This document shows, in pieces, positions 32,731 to 41,572 of a stretch of DNA of 64,000 nt; within the stretch, counting starts at the first letter, position 1; every line of letters begins with the position of its first letter. A program made the position numbers and the translations under genes. The stretch spans positions 1-64,000 of the forward strand of contig CALHPJ010000018.1 in NCBI GenBank assembly GCA_938036345.1. The letters run 5' to 3'. Under the pieces are notes generated by a model, which saw only the letters and a list, made by a program, of their open reading frames with translations, made no database searches and was not told where the DNA came from. Origin of the DNA: an uncultured Thermofilaceae archaeon (GTDB lineage Archaea > Thermoproteota > Thermoprotei > Thermofilales > Thermofilaceae).

Positions 32731-33570
32731 GCTCTCCCTTTTCTTCCTACCGAGGGCTCCATGTACTCTTCGCTGCTCTGAGTAAGCACTAGGTAGCGGG
32801 AGCGGCGCAGAGCCCCCTAGGGCTCTGCGAAAAGCGTTAAGCGGCGCGGTGCGCTGGCAGCTCTGGCGAAGGGTTCCTTGCCGGCCTTTCATCTCTCGCT
32901 TCACCACCCCTGCCTGCATTTCTTGAGCCTGACCGTCTGCACCTTTTCCTGGAGTGCGCGGTTCGATCGGGCTCGCGCCCTTCCCCTTCGGGGTTGGGCC
33001 ACTGTTAATGTGCGTGGTTGTTTAATAGGTTCCTTCGCTGGAAGCGCTTGTGACGCATCGATGCTTGCGAAATTCGCCACAGGTAGCTTAGCGGGGAGAA
33101 GAGGGAGGCTACGCTCCTAATGGAGAGGAGGCTCAGGATCTCGCTAGGCAAGCTACACATGACGGCTAGAACTGGTGAAGGGCTCCAAGTGCCCCACTCG
33201 CCCAGTGCCCGGGGCCCTCACTACCACCTATGAGTATACTTTCTATCCTGGATTACCGGCAGAGAATGGCTTCAACTCCTCGATCTATTCCTCAGCGAAG
33301 CCTGTTGCCCTTTAACCGAGCCTATGCTGCATCCATGGTCCCTTCGTCGACGGGATACGAGCAACCCTTGTACAGCACTGTTTGGAAATTCAATCTACCT
33401 GAAGGAGGTTGTAGCAATGCGCTTTTCCTTTGTTCAGGCCCTTCCTCGCGCTTCAAACCGCCATAAGGGAATCTACGTACTGTGGGCGAGTTCGCAGTGT
33501 GGAATGCAGTGTCAAAGGAACCGAGATTTTGAGTGGTTGACTTGGGTTACTACTTACCAGTGCAGAACTT
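32731..33570. other. Gene-poor, GC-rich stretch between the TnpB remnant and the hydrogenase operon
   Basis: About 840 bases without a gene I can support. It contains a perfect hairpin at 32806-32829 (arms CGCAGAGCCC and GGGCTCTGCG, loop CCTA). The minus strand around 32650-32700 reads LVRDLIETYLELKKAGF, possibly the TnpB N-terminus. Short open frames on both strands show no motif and look like decayed sequence. No tRNA, rRNA or CRISPR repeats were seen. Confidence 0.5.
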
Positions 33571-33579
33571 ATTTTAATT

Positions 33580-33588
33580 CTATATATC
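33580..33588 (+). promoter_or_regulatory. TATA box of the hybrid hydrogenase operon
   Basis: CTATATATC preceded by ATTTTAATT, about 40 bases before the ATG at 33624. It implies a short leader and argues against any upstream in-frame start. All five operon genes are within 16 bases of each other or overlap, so this is probably the single promoter. Confidence 0.6.
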
Positions 33589-33623
33589 TCGACTTTAATA
33601 AGAGCCTGTTTAAGGCGTTTCCG

Positions 33624-34139
33624 ATGGAAGGCAGTAGGAGAGACGAAGTTGACTGCGCTAGCATAGATGACCTTTTCCAAGGGCTAAGAAGGGAGCCACA
33701 TAATTTACTTGAAGCGCTTAGGAGGGTGCAGTCACGTTATGGGTACTTGCCGCTCGAAGGGATTAAAAAAGCCGCCGAGTACGTGGGGGTCCCATTAGCT
33801 CAAGCCTATAGTGTCGCTACGTTTTACCACCAATACAGCTTAGAGCCAGTGGGTAAGTATAGAATACTTGTATGCATGGGCACTGCATGCCACCTCCGCG
33901 GCAATAGTTTGAACATAGAATTCCTGCGTTCCGTGCTAGGATTAAAACCAGGTCAGAAAACCACGAGCGACGGTATTTTCTCTGTGGAGGAAGCTCGCTG
34001 CTTTGGTTGCTGCGGGCTTGCCCCGGTCGTAATGATTCAGCGCCCTGAGGGCAAAAACGAGATAGTGGGTAAGGCAAACGCGCGGACATTAAGGGCAATC
34101 ATAGCAAAATATAGGAGGCTTGAAGGGGGTGCAGGCTAA
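33624..34139 (+). CDS. HydC/NuoE-like 2Fe-2S subunit of hybrid hydrogenase
   Basis: A 171-residue thioredoxin-fold protein of the NuoE/HoxE/HydC family, cytosolic, passing electrons to or from the flavin subunit. An N-terminal helical bundle (RVQSRYGYLPLEGIKKAAEYVGVPLAQAYSVATFY) precedes the [2Fe-2S] ligands in CMGTAC and CFGCC. ATG 33624 is chosen because a TATA box lies just upstream, and the longer in-frame extension has no family similarity. The next gene starts at the base after the stop. Confidence 0.92.
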   Translation: MEGSRRDEVDCASIDDLFQGLRREPHNLLEALRRVQSRYGYLPLEGIKKAAEYVGVPLAQAYSVATFYHQYSLEPVGKYRILVCMGTACHLRGNSLNIEFLRSVLGLKPGQKTTSDGIFSVEEARCFGCCGLAPVVMIQRPEGKNEIVGKANARTLRAIIAKYRRLEGGAG

Positions 34140-36128
34140 ATGCCGTGGAGCTTACTGGATAAATGCTGCGAGAAGTGCTGGCATTCCCCGAAAACTCCGT
34201 GCCCGGATTTCATCAATTGCTCATTGAGTGGCCCGCTGTGTCACAGCGACGAAGAGTGCGCCAAAAAGAGAAAGACTAGACTCGAGCAGTTGCAGCATGG
34301 AGAAAAGGGGGCTAAAATCAAAGTACCGTGGACAAGCTGCACGCTCGCCACTGGAGCAGAGGCGGTATACCAGGCGGTTGTTGACTATATTTCGAAAAGG
34401 GGGCTGGACATCACTGTGTCTATCTCCGGTTGCTATGGCCTTGATTTCATCGACCCTTGGCTCGAGTTTGTAACGAAGGGCATGCCCACGGCAATATACG
34501 CTAACGTTAAAGAAAATAGTGTGCCGAAACTCATAGAGAGATACTTTCTAGATCAAGATGTTAGCGGAGCTTTCGCGCTCAAAGAGAAAACGGGCAACGC
34601 TAAAGGTGAGGATGAAGTACCCTTACTGAGTGAATTAGATTTCTGGAGAAAGCAATACAGATGGGTTTCCCGAAATTGTGGCATAGTCGATCCAGAGTCG
34701 CTCGAAGAGTACATCGCTTCGGGCGGCTATAAAGGGCTTAGTAGAGCTCTTAAGATGGGGCCGGATGCTGTTATAGATGAAATTCAAAAAAGTGGATTAA
34801 GGGGGCGAGGTGGTGCAGGTTTTCCCACAGGCTTGAAGTGGAGGATAACAAGACAGCAGCGTGGTACGCCGAAGTACGCTATAGCTAACGCCGATGAAGG
34901 CGATCCCGGCGCGTTTATGAATAGGTTACTCGCAGAATCTGATCCATTCAGAATTGTAGAGGGATTAACGATAGCTGGCTACGCCGTCGGCGCTAGCAGA
35001 GGTTTCATTTTCGTGCGGGCTGAAAAACCCCTAATGGCTAGGAGGTTGCAGAGGGCGGTCGAGGAGGCTAGGAAGTACGGCTTGCTGGGCACGAATATCC
35101 TTGGCTCAGGTTTCAACTTTGACATAGAAGTTATACTCAGCGCTGGAGCATTTGTGTGTGGCGAGGAAACGGCGCTTATCGCCGCTATCGAAGGTAAAAG
35201 GGCCTGGCCCCGGCAGCGGCCACCATACCCGGCTGAAAAGGGGTTGTGGGGGCAACCCACAGTGATAAACAATGTAGAGACGCTGGCGCATGTAGCCACA
35301 ATCATGGCTGAAGGCGCTGAGAAGTTTGCGGCTTTAGGCAGCGATAGAACGAAAGGTACGAAGATGTTCTGTGTTACCGGGGCGGTAAAAAGGACGGGAG
35401 CTTATGAAGTACCAATAGGAGTTACCATCCGAATTCTTGTTGAGGAGTTGGCAGGCGGCGCACCTGATGGGGTAAAAATCAAAGCGGTACAGATAGGGGG
35501 CCCATCGGGGGGTTGCATACCGGCTTCGCTTTTAGATCTACAGGTAGACTACGAAACCTTGCAGAGCGCTGGCGCTATAATGGGGAGCGGAGGTGTAGTA
35601 GCTATTAGCGACGAGAACTGTATGGTCGATGTAGCTAAATTCTTCCTAACGTTCACGTCGGCGGAGTCCTGCGGGAAGTGTATGCCGTGCCGAGTGGGGT
35701 TGCGGGTAATGTGGAGCATCCTAGATAAAATAACGCAAGGTAAAGGTCAAGAGGAGGATTTAGAGGTTTTAAAGCAACTTGCTGAAACCGTTCGAAGCAC
35801 GAGCTTGTGCGCTTTGGGAGGGACCGCGCCGAACCCGGTACTTTCTACACTCCGCTACTTCATGGACGAATATGAAGCACACATCAAAAAGGGTGTGTGT
35901 CCTGCGAATGTATGTGCCGCGCTAGTCACTTACTTGATAGATGAGGATATGTGCATAGGTTGTGGGCAATGCGCGATGAACTGCCCAGCAAATGCTATAT
36001 CGAAGCTTGCGAGCGGTAAGTACCGTATAGATCAGAGTTTGTGTGTCAAGTGTGGAACCTGCTACGTAGTTTGCCCGGTAAGGGCTGTGAAGAAAACCAG
36101 CTGTTCAGGAGGTGGTGGGAATGGTTAA
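34140..36128 (+). CDS. HydB/NuoF-like FMN- and NAD-binding subunit of hybrid hydrogenase
   Basis: A 662-residue diaphorase subunit. Residues 1-45 are Cys-rich (C9, C10, C13, C21, C27, C34, C40). Residues 58-150 are a thioredoxin-like domain with only C67 and C98 of the usual four ligands. Then comes the NuoF core, with GRGGAGFPTGLKW and ANADEGDPGAF for NADH/FMN, ESCGKCMPCRVG for a [4Fe-4S] cluster, and finally a two-cluster ferredoxin (CIGCGQCAMNC, CVKCGTCYVVC). It would exchange electrons with NAD(P). It overlaps the next gene by eight bases. Confidence 0.93.
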   Translation: MPWSLLDKCCEKCWHSPKTPCPDFINCSLSGPLCHSDEECAKKRKTRLEQLQHGEKGAKIKVPWTSCTLATGAEAVYQAVVDYISKRGLDITVSISGCYGLDFIDPWLEFVTKGMPTAIYANVKENSVPKLIERYFLDQDVSGAFALKEKTGNAKGEDEVPLLSELDFWRKQYRWVSRNCGIVDPESLEEYIASGGYKGLSRALKMGPDAVIDEIQKSGLRGRGGAGFPTGLKWRITRQQRGTPKYAIANADEGDPGAFMNRLLAESDPFRIVEGLTIAGYAVGASRGFIFVRAEKPLMARRLQRAVEEARKYGLLGTNILGSGFNFDIEVILSAGAFVCGEETALIAAIEGKRAWPRQRPPYPAEKGLWGQPTVINNVETLAHVATIMAEGAEKFAALGSDRTKGTKMFCVTGAVKRTGAYEVPIGVTIRILVEELAGGAPDGVKIKAVQIGGPSGGCIPASLLDLQVDYETLQSAGAIMGSGGVVAISDENCMVDVAKFFLTFTSAESCGKCMPCRVGLRVMWSILDKITQGKGQEEDLEVLKQLAETVRSTSLCALGGTAPNPVLSTLRYFMDEYEAHIKKGVCPANVCAALVTYLIDEDMCIGCGQCAMNCPANAISKLASGKYRIDQSLCVKCGTCYVVCPVRAVKKTSCSGGGGNG

Positions 36129-36777
36129 GGTAAAAATTGACGGGGTAACTATTGAGGTTGAACCTGGAACTTCTGTACTGGCTGCAGCTGAGAAAGCAGG
36201 TTTAAGGATTCCCCACCTCTGCGTCGTTAAGGGTATTTACGAAGGTGCTAGCTGTAGGCTGTGCCTAGTTAAAACCCCGACGGGCCGCCTCTTTCCAGCC
36301 TGTGCTTACTATGTATACAGGGATGAGGAGTTCATCAGTGACTCACTAGACCTGAGAATAGAAAGAAAAGTGAACTTTGAATTTATCCTTAAGTTCCATA
36401 GAATGGAGTGCTGGCTTTGCCCGCGCAAGGGTAACTGCCTGCTCGCTAAGTTATCGAAAGAATTGGCAGTCGAAGGAACCCCCGTATGTGCAGAGTGCCC
36501 TCTTTCTCCGGAGGAGTGCCTGCTAACTAAGGGCGTGCCCTGTCTTGGACCGATTACACTATCCGGGTGCGATGCCGAGTGCGTTGAGAGTGGAGGACCT
36601 TGTTGGGGCTGCCGCGGTCCAATATCTAGGGTGGACGTGCTCGAAAATGCATTTTCGCGCTATAGGGAGCTGGGGATTGATACCGAAACTATTTTGAGAA
36701 AAGCTGATATATTTTGGAACTCGCTCCCCGAATTCGAGGTAGTGAAGAAGGTGTTTAACAGGGTGAGAACATCGTGA
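36121..36777 (+). CDS. Chimera: NuoG/HydA-type N-terminal Fe-S domain plus [NiFe] small-subunit C-terminal domain
   Basis: A 218-residue protein. Residues 1-75 form a plant-type ferredoxin with [2Fe-2S] ligands C34, C45, C48 and C61. H93, C97, C100 and C106 make the His-Cys [4Fe-4S] motif of NuoG/HoxU/HydA. Residues 120-200 match the C-terminal domain of group 3 [NiFe] small subunits: C123, C126, C133, C141 and then CDAEC, CWGCRGP (C150, C154, C161, C164), which hold medial and distal clusters. ATG 36121 follows AGGAGG by eight bases; an earlier GTG is possible. Confidence 0.88.
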   Translation: MVKVKIDGVTIEVEPGTSVLAAAEKAGLRIPHLCVVKGIYEGASCRLCLVKTPTGRLFPACAYYVYRDEEFISDSLDLRIERKVNFEFILKFHRMECWLCPRKGNCLLAKLSKELAVEGTPVCAECPLSPEECLLTKGVPCLGPITLSGCDAECVESGGPCWGCRGPISRVDVLENAFSRYRELGIDTETILRKADIFWNSLPEFEVVKKVFNRVRTS

Positions 36778-38057
36778 GCAGCCAGCATGGCAGCTTAATC
36801 ATAGGAGAAGTCCCAGCAGTCGCTGGGCACGTCGATGTGCACGTTGAGAGCAAAGAAGCAACTGTCCGAGTTAAGTTCAGCGCTACCCAGGATCCCAGGT
36901 TCTTCGAGCGTTTTCTCAAAGGAAGGCCGAGCGTAGAGGTACCATACGTGATGTCGCGCATATGCGGTGTTTGCAGCGTTGTGCACTTGACCTGTTCAAT
37001 AAATGCTGTAGAAAAAGCGCTTGGTGTTGAACCGAGTGAGGAAGTTCTCAGACTTAGGGAGCTAGCTAAGGGTCTGGAAATAGTCCAGAACAACTTAATA
37101 CACGTTTTGATGTCACTGCCTGATTTCACAGGCTGCAGTGACGTGGTAAGTTTTTCAAAAATGCACCAAAGTATTTTCAGCAATCTAATGGAAGCCAATA
37201 GGCTCGCGCTAGAGGCCCATAAGAGGATCTGCGGTAGATTCGTGCATATTCCGACTTTAGGCGTCGCAGCGCACAACAAGCCGGTGAGCAGGTATGAGCT
37301 GGAGACGGCAGGTAAGCTCCTTCACACAGTAGCTAGGAAACTCGAAGAAACGGCCAGCGATTTGGCAGATGCATGGAGGCCACCTGTGGAGGGGTTTAGC
37401 GATCCAGCACCCACTTACTGCGTTTTAAATGGCGATGAAAGGTACCCTCTATTCAGTTCAAGCTTGCTGTTTTCAGATGGAGTAACAGTCCCCGTCGAGA
37501 AGTACGCCACCGTTATAGAGGAGATAAGATCCCCCCACTCTAACGCTCACTATGCCCTTTACAGGGGCAGAGCTTTCTACACCGGATCCAGGGCAAGGAT
37601 TCAAGCATACTCGAAAATCATTGGTTGCGAGGTTTCAGTATTAGCGAAAACACTGAGTATAGATTTCAACAACCCCTTCGATAACGTGGGTGCACAATAC
37701 GTGGATGTTGTCTATTTATCGCGTTTCCTGGGCGATCTGGCCCTTGATCTGGCAGATAGATTCCGAGGGGGCATAAAACCCTCCCATGTCGAATATTCCA
37801 GTGGAAGCGGCGAAGGAGTAGCGACTGTGACCGCTCCAAGAGGCGTTCTTATACACCATTACGTCATAAGGGGAGGCAGGCTAGAAAGCGCGAACATCAT
37901 AACTCCCACAGTTATGAACGCGAGACATATAGAGGTAGCCGGTGAAGCCTTGGTTCGAAAGCTTGTGGAGCGTGGCGAAAGTGAAGAAAATATAAAAAAT
38001 ATAATAGCCGCACTTGTGAGAGCTTACGATCCATGTTTACCGTGTTCTGTCCATTAG
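36774..38057 (+). CDS. [NiFe]-hydrogenase large subunit, group 3-like
   Basis: A 427-residue catalytic subunit. Both Ni-Fe ligand motifs are intact: RICGVCSVVH (Cys64, Cys67) and DPCLPCSVH (Cys421, Cys424), so it should bind the NiFe(CN)2CO centre and split or form H2. The protein ends exactly at His427. The C-terminal extension normally removed by a maturation protease is absent. It starts with GTG overlapping the previous stop (GTGA). hyp maturation genes are not in the window. Confidence 0.95.
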   Translation: MSSQHGSLIIGEVPAVAGHVDVHVESKEATVRVKFSATQDPRFFERFLKGRPSVEVPYVMSRICGVCSVVHLTCSINAVEKALGVEPSEEVLRLRELAKGLEIVQNNLIHVLMSLPDFTGCSDVVSFSKMHQSIFSNLMEANRLALEAHKRICGRFVHIPTLGVAAHNKPVSRYELETAGKLLHTVARKLEETASDLADAWRPPVEGFSDPAPTYCVLNGDERYPLFSSSLLFSDGVTVPVEKYATVIEEIRSPHSNAHYALYRGRAFYTGSRARIQAYSKIIGCEVSVLAKTLSIDFNNPFDNVGAQYVDVVYLSRFLGDLALDLADRFRGGIKPSHVEYSSGSGEGVATVTAPRGVLIHHYVIRGGRLESANIITPTVMNARHIEVAGEALVRKLVERGESEENIKNIIAALVRAYDPCLPCSVH

Positions 38058-38060
38058 GCG

Positions 38061-39350
38061 ATGAGTATGAAGGTGGCGTTCTTCTCATTTGGAGCGTGCG
38101 AAGGTTGCAGGTACAGGATGGTGAACGAGCTCTCTAAGATACTCAGTATAGACGGCATCGAAATAGTGAGGGAGCTCCTACTCGGGCTAACCTCCGAGGA
38201 TGAGTATGATATAGCTGTAGTGGAAGGCGCATTGACCTCCCTCGATGTAGAGAAGTTCAAGGAAATTAGGAGTAAAGCAAAATACGTAGTAGCTCTGGGG
38301 AGCTGTGCGTACCTTGGCGGAATCACTACACTGGGGTATAAGTACGGTTTTCAAGCTGAAGAGTATCTCGAGAAGGGTTACAAAGAATCTATTCCGCTTC
38401 AGCAAGTAGCGCGCGTTGACAGCTACGTTAGGGGTTGTCCCGCAAGCATCGACGAACTAGCCCAAGTTCTAAAAGAGATAGCAACTTTAGGGGTGTTACC
38501 CAAGTATGAGAGGAGGTTTGAATTCGAAAAAGTGTCAGATTTAGTGTTAAAAGATGACTTCCTTAAGTTGGATACGGGTAAGTGCATTGTCTGTGGAAGA
38601 TGCGTCGAAATCTGCTCTCGGATAAACGTTCACGCGCTCACGCAAGCTTTTCGAGGGTTCCGGGTAACTGTGAGTACTCCAGCTCAGCTAAGCTTTCTCG
38701 AAGCTGGCTGCGTACGGTGTGGGCTTTGTGCAGCTTTTTGTCCAGTGGGGGCAGTGACCTACAGAAGTGATATGGAGGCGGCACTGAAAGCTATCCATTC
38801 CGGTGCTAGTGTAGTGGCCGAGGTAATAGCTCTAGAGGCGACGGCCAAAGCCCTTGGCGTGAAGGTTGGGCAAGTAGTATCTCTGCTTAAGCAATTGGGA
38901 GCCTCTAGCGTTAAAGTAGTGGATCCAGCAGGTCTAGTTGCAAATAAAGTCGGTGTAGTGCCCTTCAGCATGGCTGAGGAAAGATGGATAAAGACTATCT
39001 ACCCTCAGGCTAGCGAATACTTACTTCAACGACCAATACTAAATAGCCAGAATGCCCTGCTTATCACTGCCTGTGCCGCTAGAAAGGAAGATCACACACC
39101 GACTTTAACAGCGCACGAACTAGAAATGTTGGCAAGGGGGTCCGGTTTTGTCCTAGAGGATCTTCCGGAAGTTAGTGTTGATTTTCAACCTGCGTCTAGG
39201 TCGAACCTGCGAATAGCTAAGGGTCCGAGCGAATCCGCCGAAGCCATACGGAGGTTCTTAGAGTCACCCACCTACACGTTAGTAGTGCAGCTTTGCCCCG
39301 GAGGCTGCGAGAGAGGATCGGGCATCCCGTTTAAACTACTTAACGAATAG
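38061..39350 (+). CDS. Chimera: [NiFe] small-subunit N-terminal domain, 2x[4Fe-4S] ferredoxin and degenerate [FeFe]-hydrogenase-like domain
   Basis: A 429-residue protein. Residues 1-150 are the flavodoxin-like small-subunit domain with proximal-cluster ligands C13, C16 (GACEGC), C82 (GSC) and C126 (RGCPAS). Residues 170-230 hold two [4Fe-4S] motifs (C175/178/181/185 and C217/220/223/227). Residues 232-425 follow the order of [FeFe]-hydrogenase motifs: the TSCCP region reads VPFSMAEERW (no Cys), the MPC region reads ITACAARK (C338), and the last reads LCPGGCERGSG (C412, C416). Three of four H-cluster positions remain, so catalysis by this domain is doubtful. Confidence 0.88.
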   Translation: MSMKVAFFSFGACEGCRYRMVNELSKILSIDGIEIVRELLLGLTSEDEYDIAVVEGALTSLDVEKFKEIRSKAKYVVALGSCAYLGGITTLGYKYGFQAEEYLEKGYKESIPLQQVARVDSYVRGCPASIDELAQVLKEIATLGVLPKYERRFEFEKVSDLVLKDDFLKLDTGKCIVCGRCVEICSRINVHALTQAFRGFRVTVSTPAQLSFLEAGCVRCGLCAAFCPVGAVTYRSDMEAALKAIHSGASVVAEVIALEATAKALGVKVGQVVSLLKQLGASSVKVVDPAGLVANKVGVVPFSMAEERWIKTIYPQASEYLLQRPILNSQNALLITACAARKEDHTPTLTAHELEMLARGSGFVLEDLPEVSVDFQPASRSNLRIAKGPSESAEAIRRFLESPTYTLVVQLCPGGCERGSGIPFKLLNE

Positions 39351-39423
39351 ACAAAAATAGAAAAGTTTTTATTTATAGATTTTAACTAAAGCCAATTTGG
39401 GTACAGCACCGAAGGGGGTTCCT

Positions 39424-40809
39424 ATGCTAGAGAGTTTCAGGCAGCTGCGAAGCGCGTCACGCGGTTTCAAAATCAGCATAGTAGAGGGCGCGTTGACGGT
39501 TTTTGGCTCCTCGTTGATCGGACCCATGGTAACACCACTTCTGATACGCTTGGGAGCAGATGCCGGTGTCATTGGTTTGTACACTGCGCTTGTTTCTGCA
39601 ACTACGCCTTTGATGCAAATTTTAGCGGCTTTAATACTGGATAGGTTTCGTGAACACCGGCTCTTCATCATGACCTTCTTCGCAGGGGTTAGCAGAGCTC
39701 TGTGGTTCGGCGTCCTGCTAACGACCATAGGCGTTTGGGGGGATCTATGGACGGTTATAGCTTTACTTTGCCTTTCTAATGCTGTAGGGGTTTTAGCTAG
39801 TCTAGCATGGACGGACATAATGGCCGACTTGGTCAAGGCGGAGGAGAGGGGGCGCCTCTTCGCGGTTAGGAACACACTGCTCGGTCTCATCAACTTAGCT
39901 AGCCTTACCTTTGCAAAGGCTATATATGACCAATTGATGTACCCGCAAGGCTATACGATAGCTATTGCTTTTGGAGCTTCTCTCATGCTAGCTGCAGCAC
40001 CTTTACTCTACTTCTACGGGGACCAGGTTAAACCTAAGGGCATAGGTTTAGGCTTAAAAGGCGTTACCTCAGCCTTTAAAGACAGTCAGGTATTCAAGGA
40101 TTCCTTTTCTCTAGCTTTCTGGAACTTCGCGGTCAGCATGGTAGGCGGGGTATGGAACTACCACATGTACGCAGCTTACGGCGCCGACGAGAGCTGGTTC
40201 ACTACTTTAAACCTAGTAGCCGGGCTAATGGGCACAATAGCAAATCCTCCATGGGGATCCTTTTACGATAGGTTTGGTCCGAGAGCGACTTTTGTCCTAT
40301 CGGGATTGGGGATAGTCGCAGTACCCATTCTATTTCCTTTTTTACCAAACTTGGCTGGCCAAGCGGCTTTACAAACATATTCTACGTTCATGTGGAGCGG
40401 CTTCAACCTAGCTGCGTTCAACTATGCCCTTTCCTACGGATCTGAAGCCAGACATTTGTACATAGCAGTCTACAACACGTTTCCCTCACTGTTTTCTGCT
40501 CTCGGTACGCTGGTGGGGGTTCAGGTTTATAATAAGGCAACGGTTTGGGTATTTTTTATCTCCGGGCTTGGAAGAGTGTTCGCGTTAGCTGTCTTGTATC
40601 GGGTTTCCTCATCGAGGGGATTGGCTTACGAGGAACTGAAGGTTTTCAGTAATCTTTACCCTATCTTTCTAGCTACACGCGTATTAGCGGTTTATGCCTA
40701 CGCGGAATTCATTCTGGCATTAAAGCTGCTTTATGCCGCCCTACTAGCGGTATTGGTGCTCTCGGCACTGACCGGACTATTTATAGTGCTCAGGGTGATA
40801 GCCCTGTAG
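39424..40809 (+). CDS. Major facilitator superfamily transporter
   Basis: A 461-residue integral membrane protein with about 11-12 hydrophobic spans and MFS-like loop motifs (DRFREHRLF between helices 2 and 3, YDRFGPRATF in the second half). The substrate is unknown. ATG 39424 follows GGGGG; a TTG at 39397 is in frame and would be nearly leaderless relative to a TTTATTTATAG element at 39368. It has its own promoter and need not belong to the hydrogenase operon. Confidence 0.85.
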   Translation: MLESFRQLRSASRGFKISIVEGALTVFGSSLIGPMVTPLLIRLGADAGVIGLYTALVSATTPLMQILAALILDRFREHRLFIMTFFAGVSRALWFGVLLTTIGVWGDLWTVIALLCLSNAVGVLASLAWTDIMADLVKAEERGRLFAVRNTLLGLINLASLTFAKAIYDQLMYPQGYTIAIAFGASLMLAAAPLLYFYGDQVKPKGIGLGLKGVTSAFKDSQVFKDSFSLAFWNFAVSMVGGVWNYHMYAAYGADESWFTTLNLVAGLMGTIANPPWGSFYDRFGPRATFVLSGLGIVAVPILFPFLPNLAGQAALQTYSTFMWSGFNLAAFNYALSYGSEARHLYIAVYNTFPSLFSALGTLVGVQVYNKATVWVFFISGLGRVFALAVLYRVSSSRGLAYEELKVFSNLYPIFLATRVLAVYAYAEFILALKLLYAALLAVLVLSALTGLFIVLRVIAL

Positions 40810-40819
40810 GGGTGGAGGA

Positions 40820-41572
40820 ATGCCGGGTGACAGTCTGGATATTATCGGGGCCATACTGAATGAGCTTAGAAAGATAGGGGTAGAGTACCTAACCGCCGTG
40901 GTATTTGTGCTTCCACGCATGCTAGGCATGGTTTTAGTGTTGATACTTGGATGGACGCTAGGTAGGCTGATGGGCAGGTTAGTGGCAGCTTTTGTAAAGG
41001 TTAGCAAGGCTGACGATGCACTACTCGGAACACCCCTCGGCATTTACCTTAAGAAAGCGGGGTATTCCCTCTCTAGCTTACTGGATCTGGTGACTAGGGC
41101 CAGCATTTACATCCTTACTATTGCCTTAGCTCTTCAAGTGCTACAAATTCCAGAGGTCACATCCGCTGCAGGCGCTCTTCTCCAATTAGTTGGGCGCCTT
41201 GTTCTAGGCACGATCGTGCTCATAGTCGGGCTTTTCGTAGTAGAAAAAATTATAGGAGTTGCCGGCAGAGTCTTAGAAGGCGGTCGCGAAACATCAATAG
41301 CGCTGGGAGTTACTCACGCCATTTTATTGGCTGTAGTCATTGCCGCAGCCGCTTCAAGCGTGGGCGTGGATTTAAGCCCGATCGTTGCGGTGCTTTCTTC
41401 AGTTGCCTGGGGGATTGGGGCTGGGATCGGTTTTGCAATAGTGCTTTTCACGCTTGCGCTGCTAAAGGAAGACCTAAGCTACCTCTTTAAGGCATTCATT
41501 GCAGCCCTGCAATCTCAATCCCGAGAATCGTATAAGAACTCCAGCAACGACGTCAAAGTAGAGCGCAGGTAA
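40820..41572 (+). CDS. Membrane protein with conserved TM-helix repeats (MscS-associated type)
   Basis: A 250-residue protein with about five membrane spans. Its repeated units (LPRMLGMVLVLILGWTLGRLMGRLV and VGRLVLGTIVLIVGLFVVEKIIG) resemble the conserved TM-helix repeat found upstream of MscS-like channel domains, though no MscS beta domain follows. It starts 10 bases after the MFS gene. A channel or small-solute role is a guess. Confidence 0.7.
   Translation: MPGDSLDIIGAILNELRKIGVEYLTAVVFVLPRMLGMVLVLILGWTLGRLMGRLVAAFVKVSKADDALLGTPLGIYLKKAGYSLSSLLDLVTRASIYILTIALALQVLQIPEVTSAAGALLQLVGRLVLGTIVLIVGLFVVEKIIGVAGRVLEGGRETSIALGVTHAILLAVVIAAAASSVGVDLSPIVAVLSSVAWGIGAGIGFAIVLFTLALLKEDLSYLFKAFIAALQSQSRESYKNSSNDVKVERR

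Follow-up and report, generated by a model that had tools for sequence, protein, structure and literature searches.

What an [FeFe]-hydrogenase-like domain does in a heat-loving archaeon when its H-cluster site is incomplete, and how it got there, are the questions raised by a single open reading frame of 429 aa at positions 38061-39350 of the stretch of DNA analysed here (the window, 64,000 nucleotides of a contig from an uncultured Thermofilaceae archaeon). A preliminary description had pointed to this domain, and the elements quoted in it (VPFSMAEERW, ITACAARK with Cys338 and LCPGGC with Cys412/Cys416) are all present in the frame. The domain does not stand on its own: it is the C-terminus of a chimera that begins as a [NiFe]-hydrogenase small subunit, and two hydrogenase classes are joined in one protein.

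The frame is the last gene of an operon (33324-39350) that encodes a NuoE-like subunit, a NuoF-like subunit, a first chimera of 221 aa (chimera 1), a NiFe large subunit and the chimera above (chimera 2). This five-gene operon is conserved across the phylum Thermoproteota, and its gene order is kept in homologous loci as far as the contigs extend. The exceptions are two loci (L068:1061-3154 in genome G110 and L070:5113-7194 in genome G082) where no large-subunit gene lies between the chimeras; each of these genomes has a more distant, lower-scoring large subunit elsewhere. The features of the window are as follows.

33324-34139, + strand: NuoE/HydC (BfuC)-like subunit, thioredoxin-like [2Fe-2S] type (PF01257, E=8.8e-40).
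34140-36128, + strand: NuoF/HydB (BfuB)-like FMN/NAD subunit with SLBB, B1, a B2/Zn-type site and two C-terminal [4Fe-4S] sites (PDB matches and an invariant Cys set).
36112-36777, + strand: chimera 1, a HydA N-terminal half (aa 1-120; [2Fe-2S] A1 and His/Cys [4Fe-4S] A2) followed by a group-3b small-subunit C-terminal half (aa ~121-201; two further [4Fe-4S]), from matches to 8a6t, P. furiosus SHI delta and NF040831.
36774-38057, + strand: [NiFe]-hydrogenase large subunit with RICGVC...DPCLPC ligands (PF00374, 1.9e-24; ShyA NF040828, 3.6e-51, which is under the cut-off of that model).
38061-39350, + strand: chimera 2, a small-subunit N-domain, two [4Fe-4S] motifs and a HydA C-domain apparently without H-cluster, in one 429-aa ORF.
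38061-38516, + strand: small-subunit N-domain of chimera 2 (residues 1-150) with the proximal [4Fe-4S] ligands C11, C14, C80 and C124 (PF01058, 1.4e-20; ShyD residues 1-152).
38583-38741, + strand: two [4Fe-4S] motifs of A3/A4 type (within residues 165-240), C173/176/179/183 and C215/218/221/225, invariant in 18 homologues (HydA of 8a6t, residues 123-248, E=2.4e-22).
38751-39347, + strand: HydA C-domain (from residue ~231) with H-cluster motif 1 lost and both inter-motif stretches shortened (profile, model and fold matches).
38967-38969, + strand: codon of Ser301, which corresponds to the [4Fe-4S]H ligand CpI Cys300; 17 of 18 homologues have Ser here, whereas L048 and the unexchanged relatives have Cys.
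39072-39074, + strand: Cys336 of motif 2, invariant in 21 sequences (18 fusions and 3 unexchanged).
39294-39308, + strand: Cys410-x3-Cys414 of motif 3, CPGGC, invariant in the same 21.

Residue numbers 301, 336, 410 and 414 count from the second Met, the start favoured by the homologues, and 338, 412 and 416 from the first. In the N-domain, C11, C14 and C124 are present in 18 of 18 homologues and C80 in 17, and the closest PDB relatives of residues 165-240 are bifurcating HydA chains. For the C-domain, a profile built on 18 homologous C-domains reached HydA (HydA1) in the PDB at E=5.8e-22, and PF02906 was matched by 17 of the 18 homologues (best 1.1e-16). The window copy taken alone gave no PF02906 match, and a PF02906 search of its own genome was likewise empty; detection there needed homologue-built profiles. 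A full-length model based on seven sequences had low confidence over the ferredoxin part (pLDDT 68), so the C-domain was modelled separately. Its predicted structure (21-sequence input) reached a pLDDT of 90.4 and a pTM of 0.86, and each of its 19 PDB matches at E<=0.001 is an [FeFe]-hydrogenase (TMq 0.63-0.70). As modelled, the C-domain truly has a HydA-like fold, and the structure prediction proposed in the preliminary description bears out the assignment made there.

Comparison of the two chimeras supports a common origin by an exchange of halves. Chimera 1 corresponds to HydA 2-120 (8a6t) over residues 3-121 and to positions 156-237 of ShyD, the group-3b small subunit, over residues 121-201 (NF040831, 2.5e-19), the C-half also matching P. 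furiosus SHI delta 161-256. In chimera 2, residues 3-146 match ShyD 1-152, and the remainder matches HydA from residue 123 onward. By these matches HydA is cut near residue 121 and ShyD near residue 153, with each N-half now carrying the C-half of the other. Direct comparison with relatives whose HydA and ShyD remain whole gave identical breakpoints. In these unexchanged relatives the gene order is NuoE, NuoF, HydA (549 aa), ShyD (238 aa) and large subunit (L075), or HydA, ShyD and large subunit (L076 and L077), and the ligand residue in motif 1 is a Cys (SAECP, SPACP). The HydA gene and the small-subunit gene appear to have traded halves reciprocally, and the exchanged order could have arisen from the unexchanged one by excision of the HydA-C/ShyD-N segment and its reinsertion downstream of the large-subunit gene. 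Two unrelated hydrogenase classes have thus been joined here by more than a plain fusion of one end to the other: halves were exchanged reciprocally, and both sets of cluster motifs were kept. In chimera 1, 15 Cys are invariant in 18 homologues.

The C-domain was found in 23 of 398 Thermoproteota genomes, in exchanged form in 18, unexchanged in three, broken in one (G075) and as canonical HydA in one (G261). The relatives that carry public names are Thermofilales/Thermofilaceae MAGs. The broken copy (L081:9689-12721) is a decaying operon with many stops and fragments. On a tree of HydA C-halves rooted on intact HydA, the 18 exchanged forms group together as a single clade (98/94), with the unexchanged forms (100/98) next to it, and a single exchanged clade was likewise recovered on the large-subunit tree (99/97). 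The earliest branch within the exchanged clade on the C-half tree is L048 (rest 93/96), whose motif 1 reads IPCCYSA and which retains all four H-cluster Cys; with this branching order, a single Cys-to-Ser change suffices. The resulting series, from intact four-Cys HydA through a four-Cys exchanged form to the Ser form, makes it possible to test what an H-cluster domain does once it no longer makes H2.

The two Cys of TSCCP serve as [4Fe-4S]H ligand and in proton transfer (PMC12138974). In the window, motif TSCCPxW is absent and VPFSMAEER stands in its place; alignment with T. kivui HydA puts the Ser opposite the second Cys, the [4Fe-4S]H ligand, and the preceding residue opposite the proton-transfer Cys, which is gone. 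Motif 2 (MPCxxKxxE) reads TACAARKED, with the Cys retained and the remainder changed, and motif 3 (CxxGCxxGGGxP) reads CPGGCERGSGIP, with two Cys retained and one Gly changed to Ser. The residues between motifs 1 and 2 and between motifs 2 and 3 number 35 and 74, versus 55 and 160 in the intact archaeal HydA of L096 (TSCCPAW), a deficit of ~20 and ~86; the spacing is 43-56 and 132 residues in the unexchanged relatives. The loss of one H-cluster Cys and the shortening noticed in the preliminary description are therefore real, but 17 of 18 homologues have a Ser at the ligand position, the adjacent proton-transfer Cys is lost as well, the gap between motifs 1 and 2 is ~20 rather than ~30 residues, and the larger one between motifs 2 and 3 had been overlooked. 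The remaining ligands are under constraint: Cys336, Cys410 and Cys414 do not vary in the 18 fusions and three unexchanged relatives while mean column identity is 30%, and the dN/dS of the C-domain (0.12-0.30 in close pairs) indicates purifying selection. A new motif, VPFSSAEER ... ARKEDH, is strongly conserved in the window clade.

Neither a conserved nearby Cys that could act as fourth ligand nor HydE, HydF or HydG over cut-off was found in the genomes searched, the combination that the preliminary description had held to speak against its view. HydF and HydG had no match over cut-off in 18 genomes (own and homologous), HydE none in 15 genomes, and HydG none in the three unexchanged genomes, while Thermotoga maritima in the control set does reach the cut-offs. 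G261, which has a canonical TSCCPAW HydA, is also without a HydG match, so the absence of maturases is weak evidence, and the notion that missing HydEFG decides the cofactor question was dropped after this control. In the alignment, motif 1 of the [FeFe]-hydrogenase HydA1 from A. woodii (PDB sequence) is TSCSPGW, and a Ser at the ligand position is thus not in itself disqualifying. For both reasons, the main grounds for concluding that there is no H-cluster are that motif 1 is gone and that segments of the pocket are deleted. The canonical HydA at L096:8416-10224 (TSCCPAW, MPCTSKKTE, CPGGCIGGGGQP), encoded in a Thermoproteota genome without a HydG match, points either to a different archaeal maturation, to an incomplete MAG or to a foreign contig.

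The other subunits were compared across the operons. In the large subunit the Ni-Fe Cys ligands are intact and invariant in the alignment of operon homologues, and HypD was found in the window's own genome, which makes the NiFe site the likely H2 site. This subunit terminates exactly at DPCLPCSVH, without C-terminal extension, throughout the window clade (n=7), which should therefore not need a maturation protease for it; ~5-14 extra residues occur in other exchanged members. Two more genes of the NiFe large-subunit family lie outside the window in the same genome (G000:C22:28360 and G000:C1:129405). The NuoF-like subunit has NfnB (2.8e-207) and A. mobile NiFe-HydB (7t2r_B, 4.3e-197) as top PDB matches and retains the B1, B2-type, B3 and B4 cysteines. 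At its B5-type [2Fe-2S] site Cys67 and Cys98 are retained, and position 102 of the thioredoxin-like N-domain (codon ~34443) is Asp in the window clade (n=7) and Cys in 10 other relatives; this change makes ferredoxin-linked bifurcation by the complex uncertain, and such bifurcation is, judged from the residues retained, possible. The C1-type Cys184/189/226/230 of the NuoE-like subunit (numbering of the 271-aa ORF) are invariant in 17 operons. Its ORF exceeds the homologues (147-201 aa) by ~100 aa; an ATG at 33624 would give the usual 171 aa and is probably the real start. Downstream of the operon, an MFS transporter and a protein of ~250 aa are encoded (39397-41572), likewise in several relatives (L026, L027, L028 and L060).

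We consider it likely that the NiFe site handles H2 in a HydABC (Bfu)-type NAD-linked complex and that a single ordinary cluster in the HydA domain provides a side site for electrons. Chimera 2, a product of the half-swap between the HydA and small-subunit genes, would belong, as one of five subunits, to a soluble [NiFe]-hydrogenase that occurs in Thermofilales-type archaea and is organised around a HydABC (Bfu) scaffold for electron transfer, with H2 chemistry at the NiFe site of the adjacent large subunit. Electrons may run from the proximal small-subunit cluster through the HydA-type cluster chain to FMN/NAD(H), possibly also to ferredoxin. With motif 1 gone and segments of the 2Fe pocket deleted, the HydA C-domain would be without H-cluster; its three invariant Cys and the invariant Ser (or another, non-Cys fourth ligand) may together bind a single, ordinary cluster of cubane type that corresponds to A5 in NiFe-HydA of A. 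mobile. This cluster would form a side branch off A4 and may store electrons or provide a port for them, besides contributing to the architecture of the complex. The sequences show the homology, the operon, the Cys pattern, the shortening, the exchange, the order of events on the tree and the purifying selection; the cluster identity, the Ser ligation, the electron route and any bifurcation are what we infer. By analogy, an arrangement like that of A. mobile, with A4/A5 as side branch, is the most economical reading. The ordinary [4Fe-4S] or electron-relay role suggested in the preliminary description agrees with the invariant Cys336/410/414, the purifying selection and the A. mobile precedent (PMC8880783), and the domain is not a decaying relic.

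A relic of another kind, purely structural, without cluster and retained only for packing against other subunits, would account for the lost ligand and the large deletions, and the equivalent branch in A. mobile lies off the main NiFe-to-FMN path, which takes the A3 route (PMC9304861). We regard it as unlikely, since the three Cys persist at so low a column identity, the C-domain is under purifying selection and A. mobile has a [4Fe-4S] cluster at the equivalent site. That the C-domain still bears an H-cluster, in an enzyme with two different hydrogenase sites, is very improbable: three of four H-cluster Cys are present, including the 2Fe-bridging CxxxC, the fourth position is Ser as in A. woodii HydA1, L048 has all four Cys, and no HydG match accompanies the one canonical archaeal HydA encountered, which suggests that maturation in archaea may differ; yet a different sequence stands in place of the whole TSCCPxW motif, the proton-transfer Cys has gone, 20 and ~86 inter-motif residues are missing and HydE/F/G were not found over cut-off in the genomes searched.

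The altered site might instead have taken on a new redox or substrate function, such as an outlet to a further acceptor or the binding of a mixed cluster as in Nar1, which would give the complex three substrates. The strong conservation of the new motif in the window clade fits such a site, as do the many third substrates among Bfu relatives (PMC9304861) and the extra [2Fe-2S] bound by Nar1, whose proposed location is the 2Fe cavity (PMC12621388). We give this a small chance, because no substrate or additional ligand set is evident and the pocket is shortened. A bolder reading, which we hold to be rather improbable, is that after the reciprocal HydA/NiFe small-subunit exchange both chimeras were kept and spread in an archaeal phylum, the H-cluster site being turned in one Cys-to-Ser step into a Ser/3-Cys redox site for a third electron partner. 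A sequencing or assembly artefact, or a chance resemblance, to which the failure of PF02906 on the window copy alone might point, is next to negligible, as the fusion recurs in 17 other genomes with uninterrupted frames, a conserved operon and fold matches. The likely reading remains one ordinary cluster beside a working NiFe site, and it carries a caution for annotation: HydA-like matches in Thermoproteota need not imply [FeFe]-hydrogenase activity.

HydA homologues without H-cluster are known in HylA of the Clostridium acidurici formate dehydrogenase (PMC6085437) and in Nar1/CIAO3 (PMC12621388), which belong to other complexes and functions and have no NiFe subunit. Nar1/CIAO3 is a stand-alone cluster-trafficking protein, whereas the domain here is fused to a NiFe small subunit within a hydrogenase operon. 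A Nar1-type function was rejected on this genomic context; the likeness drawn in the preliminary description stands as an analogy of fold, the actual setting being a NiFe hydrogenase with the architecture of HydABC/Bfu complexes. Group 3b sulfhydrogenase alpha/delta (P. furiosus SHI, 9nez/9e1j) is the best named family for the large subunit, and both delta halves are present, but delta, one chain with three clusters there, is split here over 36112-36777 and 38061-39350. NuoE/NuoF-like subunits replace beta/gamma.

Archaeal hybrid hydrogenases that combine the [FeFe] and [NiFe] classes were described by Greening et al. in 2024 (Cell 187:3357), with fusions reportedly in ten archaeal orders. The fusion found here is very probably of the same kind, a kind already known. 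With these hybrids and the A. mobile precedent, the novelty is limited; what the sequences document here is that halves were exchanged reciprocally, that one Cys-to-Ser step suffices and that unexchanged relatives exist.

The closest parallel is NiFe-HydABCSL of Acetomicrobium mobile (NiFe-Bfu; PDB 7t2r; PMC8880783), which likewise combines a HydABC scaffold with NiFe small and large subunits and a HydA C-domain without H-cluster. In that enzyme a [4Fe-4S] cluster takes the place of the H-cluster (PMC8880783), and the NiFe electrons enter via A3, A4/A5 being a side branch (PMC9304861). The C-domain profile did not retrieve 7t2r_A. The operon in the window shares with NiFe-Bfu the BfuB/BfuC core with B1, B2-type, B3, B4 and C1 ligands, as well as genes for the NiFe small and large subunits within one operon. 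In A. mobile, HydA is one chain and HydS, with one cluster, is separate, whereas in the window HydA and a small subunit of 3b type have been cut and joined crosswise, and the BfuA that is a single polypeptide without H-cluster in NiFe-Bfu has its halves on two chimeras. The retained Cys of motifs 2 and 3, with Ser at the fourth position, are a feature of the archaeal form that also differs from A. mobile.
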